A stretch of 54,229 nucleotides of DNA from Bacteroidia bacterium (GTDB lineage Bacteria; Bacteroidota; Bacteroidia; Cytophagales; Flammeovirgaceae): contig JAUIAB010000021.1 of the NCBI GenBank assembly GCA_030425505.1, positions 1 to 54,229 of the forward strand. Reading direction: 5' to 3'. Shown one piece after another: positions 17,615-22,841 of this stretch. The position numbers and the translations under genes were made by a program. Positions within the stretch are counted from its first letter, which is position 1, and every line of letters starts with the position of its first letter. The notes below the pieces were generated by a model, which saw only the letters and a program-made list of their open reading frames with translations, was not told the DNA's origin and searched no databases.

Positions 17615-18493
17615 GTGAGTTCCATAAAAAAATATGAGTATGTAAAACTCACAGATACTTATGGCTCATTTAATATAAAAAAAATGGGAGATGTTTATGA
17701 TAAAAGAGGAGAAAACCCTGACGAACCTCATAGACATGATTTTTATACCATTTTATTTGTTGAAAGTGCTAAAGGGGAGCATACAGTCGATTTTAATACT
17801 TACGGTTTGGGCAACTTTCAGATATACTTTATCAGTCCAGGTCAGGTTCATCAACTAATAGAGAAGGCAAAACCTATTGGCTATGTAATTACCTTTTCAG
17901 AAATGTTTTTAGTGGAAAATAAAATTGATCAATGCTTTATTGATGATATCAACATATTTAGAAATTATGGAGAGTCGCCTCCACTTCAAATTGATCACCA
18001 ACAGTTTGATAAACTATTGAGCTATATTACTCAGATAGAAAAAGAAAATAAAGAGGATAGAAAATATAAATATCAAATAATTGGAGCTTGGCTTAAGCTC
18101 TTTTTGATAGAAGCTAATAGTTTCTGCACCCTCCGCGATCAATACCTCCCTAAAATTCATTCTGGAGAAGATTTAATGCGAAAATTCAGAGAACTAGTAG
18201 AAAAAAAATACCATAGATGGCATCAGGTTCAGCAATATGCTGATGGTCTTAATGTCACTGCAGATTATTTAAATAGAACCATAAAGTCTTTGATGGGAAC
18301 TACAGCTAAGAATTATTTGCAAAAGAAAATTTTAATAGAAGCAAAGCGACTTTTACTGTTTACTAGCCTTACTAGCAAAGAGATATCGTATCAGCTAGGC
18401 TTTACAGAGCCAGGTAATTTTAGTTTGTTTTTTAAAAGGATGACAAAACAAAGTCCTGGGCTTTTTAGAGACTCTCAAAATATCGGATTTTAA
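17615..18493 (+). CDS. AraC-family transcriptional regulator
   Basis: This 292-residue protein has an N-terminal cupin-like sensing domain (PHRHDFYTILFVE, about residues 31-43) and a C-terminal pair of helix-turn-helix motifs (about 195-290): YADGLNVTADYLNRTIKS and ISYQLGFTEPGNFSLFFKR, the second being the AraC signature. The start is GTG. It is followed by pirin and an NAD(P)H-dependent nitroreductase on the same strand, a set often found together in this phylum, so it probably controls them. The ligand is unknown. Confidence 0.92.
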   Translation: MSSIKKYEYVKLTDTYGSFNIKKMGDVYDKRGENPDEPHRHDFYTILFVESAKGEHTVDFNTYGLGNFQIYFISPGQVHQLIEKAKPIGYVITFSEMFLVENKIDQCFIDDINIFRNYGESPPLQIDHQQFDKLLSYITQIEKENKEDRKYKYQIIGAWLKLFLIEANSFCTLRDQYLPKIHSGEDLMRKFRELVEKKYHRWHQVQQYADGLNVTADYLNRTIKSLMGTTAKNYLQKKILIEAKRLLLFTSLTSKEISYQLGFTEPGNFSLFFKRMTKQSPGLFRDSQNIGF

Positions 18494-18571
18494 TAATATT
18501 TGGTCAGTTAATGATATTCTTTCACAAAGACTAGATCGCCACTTTTGCTTAAAGTAAATATCTAAAAAATA

Positions 18572-18663
18572 AAACAGACCATGTCTGATTTAAAATTGAG
18601 GCACACACGAAGCAATGATTAAGATGTGTGCCAAATAAACTGGCAGGTCGCAAATTTTAAAAA
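18572..18663 (+). repeat. 92-bp intergenic repeat, copy 1
   Basis: This element matches 21810-21902 with 4 mismatches in the first 60 bases and about 85% identity overall with one gap. It contains a small dyad CAGAC-CAT-GTCTG (18575-18587) and a larger one, GGCACACA (18600-18607) with TGTGTGCC (18625-18632), both perfect in this copy. It ends two bases before the pirin ATG (18665), so it may carry that gene's promoter or leader. Confidence 0.8.
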
Positions 18664-18664
18664 G

Positions 18665-19375
18665 ATGAAAAAGATACTACATAAAGCGGAAACAAGAGGT
18701 CATGCAAACCACGGTTGGTTAAATGCATATCATACATTTAGCTTTGCAAACTTCTACGATCCATCTAGAATGCATTTTGGTGTTTTAAGAGTTCTCAATG
18801 ATGATACTATAGCACCTGGTAAAGGATTCGGAACTCACCCACATGATAATATGGAGATCATTACCATACCTTTAAAAGGAGAATTAGAACATAAGGATAG
18901 TATGGGTAATACTTCAGTAATCAAACAAGGTGAAGTTCAGGTAATGAGCGCAGGAACAGGGATATTTCATAGTGAATACAATAAAAGAAAAGACAAAAGT
19001 TTAGAGCTATTACAGATTTGGGTTTTTCCTGATAAAAAGAATATCGAACCTAGATATGATCAAATAACATTGAATGAGGAAAAATTAAAAAATAATTTTC
19101 AGCAAATACTATCTCCAAATGCAGAAGATGATGGAGTCTGGATACATCAAAATGCATGGTTTCATCTTGGCGCTTTTGATACTAATGAGGAGGCAATCTA
19201 TAAATGGAAAGATAAGAATAATGGCATTTACGTATTTGTTATTGAGGGTGAGCTATCAGTTGTAGACCAAACACTAAGCAAAAGAGATGGTTTGGGTATT
19301 TGGGAAGAGAATGAAGTGTCTTTAAAATTCAAGTCTAGCTCAAGAGTATTGATAATGGAAGTTCCAATGCGCTGA
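18665..19375 (+). CDS. Pirin-family protein (cupin dioxygenase fold)
   Basis: This 236-residue bicupin starts at the ATG at 18665 with MKKILHKAETRG, the usual pirin N-terminus; an in-frame GTG at 18626 would place the start inside the 92-bp repeat and is rejected. The metal ligands are visible: H58 and H60 (GFGTHPHDNMEII), H102 and E104 (GIFHSEYN). Bacterial pirins act as quercetin 2,3-dioxygenases or redox sensors; substrate unknown here. It stands between an AraC regulator and a nitroreductase, which suggests a role in detoxifying aromatic or electrophilic compounds. Confidence 0.93.
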   Translation: MKKILHKAETRGHANHGWLNAYHTFSFANFYDPSRMHFGVLRVLNDDTIAPGKGFGTHPHDNMEIITIPLKGELEHKDSMGNTSVIKQGEVQVMSAGTGIFHSEYNKRKDKSLELLQIWVFPDKKNIEPRYDQITLNEEKLKNNFQQILSPNAEDDGVWIHQNAWFHLGAFDTNEEAIYKWKDKNNGIYVFVIEGELSVVDQTLSKRDGLGIWEENEVSLKFKSSSRVLIMEVPMR

Positions 19376-19459
19376 GTCGAACAACAATGCTCTTCATTAG
19401 TTAGAAGTTGATAAAGAGCAAACTCAATAGATTATTTAAAAGATTATAGCACGATTAAT

Positions 19460-20092
19460 ATGAAACTATTAGAAGCTTTAAAATGGAGATATGCTACAAA
19501 AAAGTTTGACTCTAGTAAGAAAGTAAATGATTCAGATATTATAAAAGTTAAAGAAGCAATTCACCTATCGGCATCTTCATATGGTTTGCAACCATATCAA
19601 GTTTTCATTATTACTAATGAGGATATACGAAAAAAACTAAAACTCCACTCTTGGAATCAGTCTCAAACAGTAGATGCTTCTCATCTATTTGTATTTTGTA
19701 ATTATAAAGAAGTAAGTCCACCTCTTGTAGATGCTTATATCAAACTCAGGTCATCCACTCAAAGTATAGATATAGAAAAACTGAAGGGATATGGAGACTT
19801 TATGAAGCTTAAGTTAAGTGAAAAATCGGAGGATCAGATAAAGAGCTGGACAGCTATGCAAGCCTACATTGCATTAAGTAATTTGCTTACATGTTGTGCG
19901 GAGTTAAAAATAGACGCTTGCCCCATGGAAGGCTTTGAACCAGAGAAATACGATGAGATTTTAGAGCTGCCCTCTAAAGGACTTTCTGCATGTGTTATTG
20001 CAGCAGTAGGGCATAGATCAGAAGAAGACCATACTCAATTTGCCAAAAAAGTTAGAAAATCAAATAAAAATTTATTCCAGGAAATAAAATAG
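19460..20092 (+). CDS. NAD(P)H-dependent nitroreductase (NfsB-like)
   Basis: This 210-residue flavoprotein starts KWRYATKKFD (residues 8-17), the FMN-phosphate binding R-x-A/S-x-(R/K)-x-F/Y motif of the nitroreductase family. The motif SASSYGLQPYQVFII (37-51) and the C-terminal ACPMEGFEPEKYDEIL (about 154-169) and HRSEEDHTQFAKKVR place it with NfsB-type enzymes that reduce quinones and nitroaromatics. It is the third gene of the AraC-pirin-nitroreductase set, 84 bp after pirin, so its expression is probably tied to that regulator. Confidence 0.9.
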   Translation: MKLLEALKWRYATKKFDSSKKVNDSDIIKVKEAIHLSASSYGLQPYQVFIITNEDIRKKLKLHSWNQSQTVDASHLFVFCNYKEVSPPLVDAYIKLRSSTQSIDIEKLKGYGDFMKLKLSEKSEDQIKSWTAMQAYIALSNLLTCCAELKIDACPMEGFEPEKYDEILELPSKGLSACVIAAVGHRSEEDHTQFAKKVRKSNKNLFQEIK

Positions 20093-20101
20093 AGGGAGAG
20101 A

Positions 20102-20125
20102 GTTTAACTCTGATAAGAGTTAAAC
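20102..20125. terminator. Hairpin between convergent nitroreductase and accA
   Basis: GTTTAACTC (20102-20110) pairs perfectly with GAGTTAAAC (20117-20125) around a 6-nt loop in the 34-bp gap between two convergent genes. There is no T-run on either side, so it is a weak or bidirectional terminator at best. Confidence 0.45.
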
Positions 20126-20126
20126 C

Positions 20127-21110
20127 CTAAACCCCTACATTAGCTTCTTCTTGCTTAAAATCTCCCATTTTACAAAACTTGTCAATCCTTGCATTAATGA
20201 GCTCATCTATGCTAAGTTGTGAGAGAGATTCAGCTTCTTTTAAAATTACTTTTTTTATTTCACTAGAAGCTTTTTGCAAATCCTTATCAGCTCCACCCAG
20301 AGGTTCTTTAATGATGCCATCTATTAGTTTAAAGCCTAACATATCATCGGCAGTTAATTTTAAAGCTTCAGCTGCTTGTTCCTTATAATCCCAACTTCTC
20401 CATAAGATGGAAGAACATGACTCAGGAGAAATAACAGAATACCAGGTATTTTCTAGCATTAGTACTCTATCGCCAATAGCAATACCCAGTGCACCTCCAG
20501 AAGCCCCTTCTCCAATCACAATACAAATAATAGGTACTTTCAAAGAAAACATTTCCTTCAAATTTCTGGCTATTGCTTCCCCTTGGCCTCTTTCTTCTGC
20601 TTCAATTCCTGGAAAAGCCCCAGGAGTATCAATAAGAGTTATGATTGGCTTATTGAATTTCTCAGCTGTTTTCATTAGACGAAGAGCTTTTCGGTATCCT
20701 TCAGGATTGGCCATCCCAAAGTTTCTCATCTGCCTCTGCTTGGTATTCCTACCTTTTTGCTGACCTATGAGCATAAACGTTTTTCCATCGATTTCACCAA
20801 GACCACCAACAATGGCTTTATCATCTCCGTACGATCTATCTCCATGCAACTCTATAAAACTAGAGGTCAGCTCATAAATGTAGTCTAAAGTATAAGGTCT
20901 ATTTGGGTGACGGGATAGTTGTACTCGTTGCCATCGAGTTAAATTTTTATAGGTGTCTTTTTTTAAGGTTTCAATTTTCTTTTCGAGATCTTTTATTGCC
21001 TTTGAAACATCAACATCATTTTTGTCAGCAAGCTCTTTCATATCGTTAAGCTTAGATTCAAGATCAACGATTGGTTTTTCAAAGTCAAGCACTGTGTTAT
21101 TATTATTCAT
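20127..21110 (-). CDS. accA: Acetyl-CoA carboxylase carboxyltransferase subunit alpha
   Basis: This 327-residue enzyme subunit transfers the carboxyl group from biotin to acetyl-CoA at the first step of fatty-acid synthesis, working with AccD. Motifs are [12 protein letters not shown] (about residues 67-78), the oxyanion region [11 protein letters not shown] (about 202-212) and [14 protein letters not shown] (about 228-241). The N-terminal coiled-coil ([16 protein letters not shown]) is typical. The length matches the family. It stands alone, with accD not in view, as is common in Bacteroidota. The opposite-strand frames here are shadows. Confidence 0.97.
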
Positions 21111-21213
21111 GAATCTAATTTTAATTTAGACTGTCAATAAAAAGTGTTGTTCAGTAAAAATACTATAAGAATATTTTAAAGGGCTAACTTTAGTTATAAT
21201 TATTGTATCAGTA

Positions 21214-21810
21214 ATGAATATATTAAATTATAATGAAGTAATAACATTAACCAATTTTATCCTCAGAACAAGAATGTATATTACTTCAGAATCTAGAATT
21301 TCTATTACTTCATTTATATGTGGTTTTGAAATTGGATCAAATAGTAATTATAGAATAAGCGAGCTAATAGAAAATCATTTAGAAAAGAACTATGAGTTAA
21401 AAAAGAGTTCTTCAGGGTGGCCAGATCAACTAAATGCCTATGCAAAGAAAAAGAAACTCAGATTTAGTATTGCATTCAAAAAAATACTGATAGAAATAAT
21501 AAGTGGTGATTTAAAAGGAAGAGCGAAAAGTCAGTTTTATGAGTTAATTAAAACAAAACTGAAAAATATGATTAATAAGCTGAAAGAAGGTTTTGAAATT
21601 AATCAGTTTTGGGCAGATGATTGGAGTTTTCTTGTAGATATTAGAAAAGCTTGGTTTAAAAATTTGTGGTCTGATGAAATTCTTCAAGTTTTTGAAAGGT
21701 TGGACAATGAGTTAAAAACTCCTTTTCAAGGAAAAACTGTAAAGCTTTCAGAGCACAACTCTAAAATGCTTATAAAGCTAAAAAATGAGTTTAACAATAG
21801 AATTGAATGA
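21214..21810 (+). CDS. Hypothetical protein of unknown family
   Basis: This 198-residue soluble protein is Lys-rich and mostly helical, with no signal peptide, TM helix or recognised motif. A Trp-rich stretch (FWADDWSFLVDIRKAWF, about residues 137-153) stands out. It sits between divergent accA and the transketolase N-half gene, 103 bp from accA. Its TGA stop (21808-21810) abuts the second copy of the 92-bp repeat. I cannot assign a function; its low similarity to anything I know and the adjoining repeat suggest an accessory gene. Confidence 0.6.
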   Translation: MNILNYNEVITLTNFILRTRMYITSESRISITSFICGFEIGSNSNYRISELIENHLEKNYELKKSSSGWPDQLNAYAKKKKLRFSIAFKKILIEIISGDLKGRAKSQFYELIKTKLKNMINKLKEGFEINQFWADDWSFLVDIRKAWFKNLWSDEILQVFERLDNELKTPFQGKTVKLSEHNSKMLIKLKNEFNNRIE

Positions 21811-21902
21811 AACAGACCATTTCTGGTTTAAAGTTGAGGCACACACGAAGCAATGATTAAGATGTGTACCACATAGGCTATGCAGGTTATAAATTTTAAA
21901 CA
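21810..21902 (+). repeat. 92-bp intergenic repeat, copy 2
   Basis: This is the partner of 18572-18663, in the same orientation and 3.2 kb away. Both internal dyads have decayed: CAGAC-CAT-TTCTG has one mismatch and GGCACACA...TGTGTACC has one. It begins at the stop codon of the gene at 21214 and ends about 90 bp upstream of the transketolase gene. Confidence 0.8.
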
Positions 21903-21992
21903 GACATAAAGCATATTAAAATACGAGAATTACTTTATCGTAAAGTAGTTTTGCTATTTTAGTGTGTTTGGAATTTTCAGAAAGTAAAGTCT

Positions 21993-22841
21993 ATGAAAAA
22001 AAAAGAATTACAAGAACTGCAAGGTATAGCATCGCAGGTGCGTAGAGATATTGTTAGAATGGTTAATAATGCTGGCAATGGTCACCCTGGAGGGGCTTTG
22101 GGTTGCGCAGACCTTTTAACATTACTGTACTTTAAAGTAATGGAGAGAAAAGAAAAGTTTGAAATGAATGGAGAAAATGAAGACCTGTTTTTTCTTTCTA
22201 ATGGTCATATCTCAGCAGTATGGTATAGTGTACTTGCTCGGTCTGGTTACTTTGATGTAGAAGAGTTGAAAACACATCGAAAAATAGATTCAAGACTTCA
22301 AGGGCATCCAACCCCTTATGAAGAGCTGGAAGGAGTAAGGATGGCTTCTGGTTCTTTAGGTCAGGGGCTATCTGTTGCAATCGGAGCAGCTCTTACTAAG
22401 AAATTAAACAAAGAAAATAAGGTAGTGTATGTTTTGATGGGAGATGGGGAACAACAAGAAGGTCAAATATGGGAAGCAGCAATGTTCGCTGCACATCACA
22501 AAGTAGATAATTTAATAGCATTCATAGATCACAATAAGCAACAAATAGATGGATCAACGGATGAAGTAATGTCTGTAGAAAGTCTTAAAGATAAGTATGA
22601 GTCTTTTGGCTGGAATGTATTTGAGTGTGACGGTAATAACATGGAAAAATTATATTCTACAATTATCCTGGCAAAAAAAGAGGTTGGAAATCAGAAGCCA
22701 CTAATGATTTTAATGAAAACAGAAATGGGATATGGGGTAGATTATATGATGGGAACGCATAAGTGGCACGGAGTAGCTCCTAATGATGAAGAAACCAAAA
22801 AGGCTTTAGAGCAGTTAGAAGAAACACTAGGAGACTTTTAG
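21993..22841 (+). CDS. Transketolase, N-terminal (thiamine pyrophosphate-binding) half
   Basis: This 282-residue protein is the first half of a split transketolase, moving two-carbon units in the pentose phosphate pathway. It has GNGHPGGALGCADLL (about residues 29-43), SGSLGQGLSVAIGAAL (about 119-134) and the TPP/Mg motif GDGEQQEGQIWEAA followed by FIDHNKQQIDG (about 150-188). The length suits the N-terminal subunit. The C-terminal half (pyrimidine-binding domain) is usually next door, but the next gene is aminopeptidase P and no second half lies in the window. It may be elsewhere in the genome. Confidence 0.94.
   Translation: MKKKELQELQGIASQVRRDIVRMVNNAGNGHPGGALGCADLLTLLYFKVMERKEKFEMNGENEDLFFLSNGHISAVWYSVLARSGYFDVEELKTHRKIDSRLQGHPTPYEELEGVRMASGSLGQGLSVAIGAALTKKLNKENKVVYVLMGDGEQQEGQIWEAAMFAAHHKVDNLIAFIDHNKQQIDGSTDEVMSVESLKDKYESFGWNVFECDGNNMEKLYSTIILAKKEVGNQKPLMILMKTEMGYGVDYMMGTHKWHGVAPNDEETKKALEQLEETLGDF

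Follow-up and report, generated by a model that had tools for sequence, protein, structure and literature searches.

Descriptions of small bacterial repeats usually place them between genes, and a repeat that recurs ahead of two separate genes raises the question of whether it is a mobile element or a regulatory module that the genes share. We examined this question in a stretch of 54,229 nt (hereafter the window; contig JAUIAB010000021.1 of assembly GCA_030425505.1) from a Bacteroidia bacterium of the family Flammeovirgaceae, which carries two copies of a short palindromic repeat about 3.2 kb apart, one ahead of a pirin gene and one ahead of a transketolase gene. The initial annotation of this DNA had left both answers open, suggesting either a mobile palindromic element with one decaying copy, possibly moved by a REP-associated tyrosine transposase (RAYT), or a shared regulatory module. 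The main feature of the repeat, an exact junction with the start codon of the following gene, was missed in that annotation.

Copies that end at start codons

A sequence-only model built from an alignment of 27 copies found at least 114 copies of the repeat in this 2.95-Mb Bacteroidota genome at E<=2.6e-7 (116 matches overall). The best 150 of 2380 candidates were scored, so that 114 is a lower bound. BLAST of the same genome gave at least 43 matches (best 40 of 115 candidates scored) and a pattern search gave 45. The main-family consensus reads ATGAAACAGACCATGTCTGATTTAAAATTGAGGCACACACGAAGCAATGATTAAGATGTGTGCCAAACAAACTAGGCAGGTCACAAATTTTAAACAG, followed by the ATGAA of the next gene, and the element is 96-97 nt long. 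Tandem copies were found at C19:84239-84433, C21:190165-190456 and C39:30359-30546. The initial annotation had tied a regulatory duplication to the genome holding only these two copies; with 114 copies, that explanation is ruled out.

About 0.8 kb was fetched on each side of every copy, the two window copies being read from the window itself, and a junction was scored where an ATG, GTG or TTG opening 50 codons lay between positions -5 and +3 relative to the end of the model match. By this rule, 85 of the 114 copies run up to the start codon (83 ATG and two GTG) of a frame that has the same orientation and stays open for at least 50 codons, and a divergent start at the left end was seen in one of the 114 copies only. 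Of the remaining 29, four are internal units of tandem arrays and nine either are followed by a start after a further 4-16 nt or have one within a truncated end; the other 16 lack a nearby start codon. To compare these numbers with the background, we counted ATGAA sites in 194 kb: 52 were gene starts, by the simple rule of taking the longest ATG open reading frame (ORF) of at least 100 codons, 119 lay elsewhere in non-coding DNA and 694 within genes. The excess of copies at starts relative to the 52 start and 119 non-start sites is highly significant (Fisher p=1.7e-13). A second control, with random junctions placed after ATGAA, gave 8 of 113; it masks most gene starts and its p-value was not used. 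In addition, AA opens the second codon of 65 of the 85 targeted genes, as compared with 52 of 161 in the background (p=4.5e-11). Taken together, the excess at codon 2 and the excess at starts indicate that the ATGAA pentamer and something about start sites both matter.

The ATG at the right-hand junction is the native start of the gene, since ten downstream proteins, chosen for belonging to recognisable families (FabD, Asd, RimM, a CinA-like protein, RpiB, MnmA, GltX, PfkA, Gmd and thioredoxin reductase), all align to their family profiles from residues 1-8. Two side observations concern individual copies. Those at C38:3085-3185 and C38:11601-11701, 8.5 kb apart, share their flanks and the start of the gene downstream, which may reflect a local duplication or an assembly effect. 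At C12:10909-10971, the right half of an element stands before a short frame, MKRIFY and a stop, that resembles a broken gene start.

Structure, decay and constraint

In the consensus, CAGAC-CAT-GTCTG forms a hairpin on the left, TTTAAAATT pairs with AATTTTAAA in a long A/T stem, and GGCACACA/TGTGTGCC make the central hairpin. In both DNA and RNA folds the hairpins are those at the left end and in the centre, and the right end has no separate hairpin of its own. The end hairpin is preceded by ATGAAA and followed by TTTCAT, and lacks a GT[AG]G foot. The termini, compared by eye in the consensus, are not inverted repeats of one another (left AAACAGACC; right, read inwards, CTGTTTAAA). The single-strand DNA fold beats at least 196 of 200 shuffles; the RNA fold of the first window copy beats 197 of 200 on the plus strand and 200 of 200 on the minus strand, and the plus-strand RNA fold of the second copy had no such advantage over 200 shuffles.

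Within the window, copy 1 occupies 18569..18664 on the plus strand (96 nt; model R1 match 18569-18669, E=1.0e-28) and runs from a decayed left ATG (ATA, 18569-18571) to the base preceding the start codon (18665-18667) of the pirin gene. Its left-end hairpin, CAGAC-CAT-GTCTG (helix 1), was read from the sequence at 18575..18587, the central hairpin (helix 3; GGCACACA...TGTGTGCC) lies at 18600..18632 with arms at 18600-18607 and 18625-18632 and appears in both the DNA and RNA folds, and the A/T-rich right end, TCACAAATTTTAAACAG in the family consensus, spans 18650..18664. Copy 2, also on the plus strand, occupies 21807..21903 (97 nt; model R1 match 21807-21905, E=1.8e-26), with an intact left ATG (21807-21809) and a right end that lacks an ATG. 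Its hairpins, likewise read from the sequence, are at 21813..21825 (CAGACCATTTCTG, one mismatch) and 21838..21870 (GGCACACA...TGTGTACC, one change). Both repeats thus lie where the initial annotation had put them, copy 1 with perfect dyads and copy 2 with a single change in each dyad, and the element itself begins 3 nt earlier than was then given, at the ATG. A recount over the first 61 bases gave exactly four differences between the copies (positions 12, 17, 24 and 59), as had been reported. The two match without gaps over 70 nt at 91% identity, and the 30-mer core that they share occurs twice in the window and in none of 100 dinucleotide-preserving shuffles.

The pirin gene (18665..19375, plus strand; Pfam Pirin E=3.8e-35, Pirin_C_2 E=5.1e-25), whose Pirin match begins at residue 10, abuts copy 1. 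Copy 2 is overlapped at its left ATGA by the stop codon (21808-21810) of a plus-strand ORF at 21214..21810 that has no Pfam family at E<=0.01, and the gene for the transketolase N-terminal subunit (21993..22841, plus strand; Transketolase_N E=1.3e-54) begins 89 nt past its end. The earlier placement of both copies just upstream of genes therefore holds for copy 1 but not, in the same sense, for copy 2. An Rfam covariance-model search of 18300-22200 gave nothing at E<=0.1 and one match at E=0.2 that is off the element. Elsewhere in the window, positions 27-355 hold three 47-nt units spaced 141 nt apart and 70-74% alike, probably belonging to a gene for a repeat-domain protein.

The notion that one copy is decaying understated the case, in that the whole family has decayed. 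The copies have a mean identity of 88.8% to the consensus, and the family as a whole is therefore old; G>A and C>T changes make up 520 of 1118 substitutions. Sixteen copies form a subfamily, B, with common diagnostic indels, including a frame-shifting 1-nt deletion, and 11 of the 16 have start-codon insertions of their own. Linkage between variants is low (44 of 981 pairs at p<0.01), with most of the top pairs falling within subfamily B.

Conservation statistics were drawn from 109 of the 114 copies, five short ones being excluded. In nucleotides 5-32, G/C positions are kept at 0.92 versus 0.77-0.82 in the interior, and the difference amounts to 0.13 among 79 copies at starts and to 0.11 among 10 that are not at starts. 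As it is alike in both groups, the constraint on the left end is not due to the neighbouring gene; a better-kept left end is as expected if mobility constrains the ends. The left ATG, which opens a 17-codon mini-ORF (consensus MKQTMSDLKLRHTRSND, then a stop), is intact in 78 of the 109 readable copies and lost in 31, and is also kept in copies that have no start codon on the right.

Two further possibilities were considered and set aside. A conserved micropeptide, suggested by the diverged elements L239 and L063, is not supported, as no codon-position bias was found in the mini-ORF among the copies and the frameshifted subfamily spread. Conservation of an RNA structure has marginal support: pair counts on 104 matches, which came from 100 of the 106 loci fetched and did not include the window copies, gave 23 doubly changed cells versus 17.5 in shuffles, a version slid by +1 gave 32, and RNAalifold found one doubly changed pair of 13. 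Covariation is therefore weak and on one measure is exceeded by the slid control.

Related elements in other genomes

Among 38 relatives (the genome itself counted), three had a match at E<=0.001. Flexithrix dorotheae (NZ_KB903443) and its congener G009 share two elements by descent, 78% and 83% identical and standing before the same genes. Within this genus, the shared elements have lost hairpin pairing or the reading frame, and the frame length of one conserved pair differs between the species. Outside the order, a metagenome-assembled genome (MAG) of the Salinivirgaceae (order Bacteroidales) gave 17 matches at E<=1, six of them at E<=5e-7. We examined these six, and each of them, like another element in G009 that makes a seventh, ends at an ATG opening at least 113 codons. 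The model included one of the six, that genome having been brought in by a match to the right end. When eight aligned elements and consensi from the two orders (the Cytophagales family and the Bacteroidales MAG) are compared, the ends are conserved and the interiors are variable.

The family is rare in the sampled genomes of the order and the phylum. An order-wide model search found it in at least three of 390 genomes at E<=1e-4, the best 10 candidates per genome being scored. In a phylum-wide scan with the left-end pattern, four of 395 genomes matched, and true left ends were present in the element's own genome alone (62 matches); the other three had four single places, none element-like, which we attribute to chance, and the Salinivirgaceae genome was not among the matches. 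A scan of a genome contig collection with the exact core gave no match. The right end matched four of these contigs, with the left end also present in two (Flexithrix dorotheae and the Salinivirgaceae MAG) and absent from two, and matched three viral contigs, none with a left end. Plasmids and phages were also scanned without a match.

Origin of the family and comparison with known systems

Conserved ends, variable interiors, a subfamily, tandem copies and neutral-looking decay together argue for a mobile element, and the junction with start codons argues for a target that contains ATG. We therefore consider that the family probably represents an old non-autonomous mobile element whose preferred target contains the start codon; of the two earlier suggestions, it is the mobile element that the dispersed copies, the 16-copy subfamily with its diagnostic indels and the conservation of ends across genera support. 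Such an element would be small (97 nt) and like a miniature inverted-repeat transposable element (MITE), with conserved termini, and would prefer ATGAA on the strand of the gene. We infer that it moved by transposition, each new copy inserting between the gene's own leader and its ATG. The left ATG of the element would then take over the native leader, and the native ATG(AA) would be left intact at the right end, behind the A/T-rich sequence, which may be able to serve as a new initiation region. Because the native ATG stays intact, the protein would be unchanged and even housekeeping genes would tolerate the insertion.

The flanks bear on how the insertion might be made. An ATG carried by the element itself, or a duplication of no more than 3 bp, fits them better than one of 5 bp would. 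A target-site duplication could cover at most 3 bp (ATG), and even this is contradicted at two GTG genes that face a left ATG (C5:18387 and C21:218215). At one site, C25:51336, ATGAGA stands on both sides. Since ATGAAA stays constant on the left and the right side varies with the gene, the most economical chemistry would be like that of IS200/IS605, a strand-specific insertion 3' of a fixed pentanucleotide that reads TTCAT on the opposite strand; within the mobile-element explanation we put this forward tentatively, as a minority possibility, a hairpin of its own being absent from the right end. Duplication of the 3-bp ATG is a possible alternative. The gene for a PAS/HisKA histidine kinase at C39:46104-46123 (minus strand) has as its in-frame 5' end the initial 21 nt of the element (MKQTMSD...), likely as the result of a deletion joining the mini-ORF to the host gene.

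Nevertheless, several observations weigh against a mobile element of this kind. Genes that start with ATGAGA, ATGGAA, ATGTAT or GTG usually still have ATGAAA on the left side of the element, and there is no clean target-site duplication. An empty site for element L239, sought within the genus, was not found, as there were only paralogues and no clear one-to-one orthologue. A preference for ATGAA combined with purging from coding DNA would account for about 30% of copies at starts and not for 75%, and 16 copies have no start codon nearby. No mobilising enzyme was found among the Y1 transposases, DDE and tyrosine recombinases not being searched, and no autonomous copy with the same ends was found by the left-end search. 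That search gave 81 matches, of which 78 fall within the 114 known short copies, one is the gene fusion and two (C6:9822 and C18:84440) were not looked at, and a longer autonomous copy was rejected on this basis. The two half elements on C12 (10909 and 16309, on opposite strands) proved to be truncated copies that each adjoin an ordinary gene, and housekeeping genes separate the two.

The excess at starts might be accounted for if the insertion machinery recognises translation starts as such and not only ATGAA, for example through DNA that transcription and translation have opened at the beginning of a gene, or through an intermediate linked to mRNA or the ribosome. Recognition of start sites would explain the 75% at starts versus about 30% for non-coding ATGAA sites, and also the use of ATGAGA, ATGGAA, ATGACA and GTG. 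We regard it as rather unlikely; if true, it would amount to a gene-sparing 'start-codon homing' in which the host leader is borrowed for the ATG of the element.

A shared cis-regulatory leader, in which the mini-ORF and hairpins before about 85 genes would form a translational or attenuation regulon, is quite unlikely. It is consistent with the position right before starts, the single orientation and the short frame opened by the left ATG, and with the similar short peptides of diverged elements (MKRSIAEFKLSHTKSYN and a stop in L063, MQQAITDLLLRLTKSND and a stop in L239, including a Ser AGC/TCT switch); that a histidine-kinase gene begins with element codons also points this way. However, although such a leader would account for the position, it would not account for the decay, for the spread of a subfamily with a shifted frame or for the constraint on the ends of copies that are not at starts. 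The absence of codon-position bias, the loss of the left ATG in over a quarter of readable copies, the change of frame length between Flexithrix-genus species, the weak covariation and the lack of an Rfam match argue against it, as do the target genes, which looked functionally unrelated (by inspection, without an enrichment test).

A DDE-type MITE that duplicates a 3-bp ATG target and has lost its autonomous parent is very unlikely. It would fit a small element present in many copies, most of them flanked by ATG on both sides, with no autonomous copy left, but the termini are not inverted repeats and the two GTG genes face a left ATG.

The remaining explanation, the RAYT proposed at the outset, was pursued through the Y1-type genes of the genome. 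There are three at E<=0.1, one of them above the Pfam cut-off; by motif, we take one to be IS200-like and two to be RAYT-like. No element copy was found in the three loci of about 3 kb (best match 13 nt), and each Y1 gene is adjoined by its own, different palindrome (by eye), so that the proposed link was not borne out. A family of repetitive extragenic palindromes (REP/REPIN) moved by a RAYT, which would suit palindromic, dispersed and largely extragenic copies in a genome that has Y1 genes, is highly improbable in view of these loci and of the missing GT[AG]G at the hairpin foot. Apart from the element, one RAYT-like gene (C20:28808-29068) has a different palindrome (ACCTAACAGG...CCTGTTAGGT) on both sides, probably a separate REP family, and the other RAYT-like ORF (C19:13476-13661) is flanked directly by the end of a large ORF resembling the Cas9 C-terminus on one side and by a cas1-like ORF on the other, as labelled by eye from the translations.

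If the start codon is indeed part of the target of a mobile element, an ending exact to the base at the starts of genes, among them fabD, pfkA, gltX, rimM and mnmA, would amount to a strategy of safe harbour. The 5' leaders of about 3% of genes, an estimate that sets 85 genes against the typical gene count for 2.95 Mb, would have been rewired in one way, providing a natural experiment on translation start in this phylum when a gene's own leader is captured by another ATG.

No description of such an element was found in the open-licence PMC literature, subscription papers lying outside the search. It is most readily compared with the non-autonomous elements of IS200/IS605 and with REP/REPIN, which, as described in PMC6006769, are likewise short; their subterminal hairpins, strand-specific target and insertion beside a fixed tetra- or pentanucleotide without clear duplication are features that this element may share. 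The same account gives GT[AG]G at the 5' foot of the hairpin as a canonical REP feature and calls the structures of the Bacteroidetes subclass 2.6 atypical. The present element differs in that its target is the start codon region, it has no GT[AG]G foot and no Y1 gene is linked to the same repeat. Rickettsia palindromic elements, as described in parts of a second source (PMC10969869), are similar in being about 100-150 bp long, palindromic, tolerated in protein-coding genes and furnished with a short ORF; they insert in frame inside ORFs, whereas this element stops short of the ORF and does not alter the protein, except in the fusion at C39:46104. Correia elements and other MITEs, in passages of the same source (PMC10969869), also lie predominantly immediately upstream of genes, but here the junction is base-exact at the start codon and the ends are not terminal inverted repeats. 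Finally, the TAACTGA heptamer arrays of Beggiatoaceae, Cyanobacteria and some Bacteroidetes mostly lie no more than a few nucleotides upstream of starts, in one orientation, as this element does (PMC4679880, in part); as there described, they are direct repeats of a heptamer, without the 97-nt unit, the hairpins or the left ATG that characterise the family reported here.

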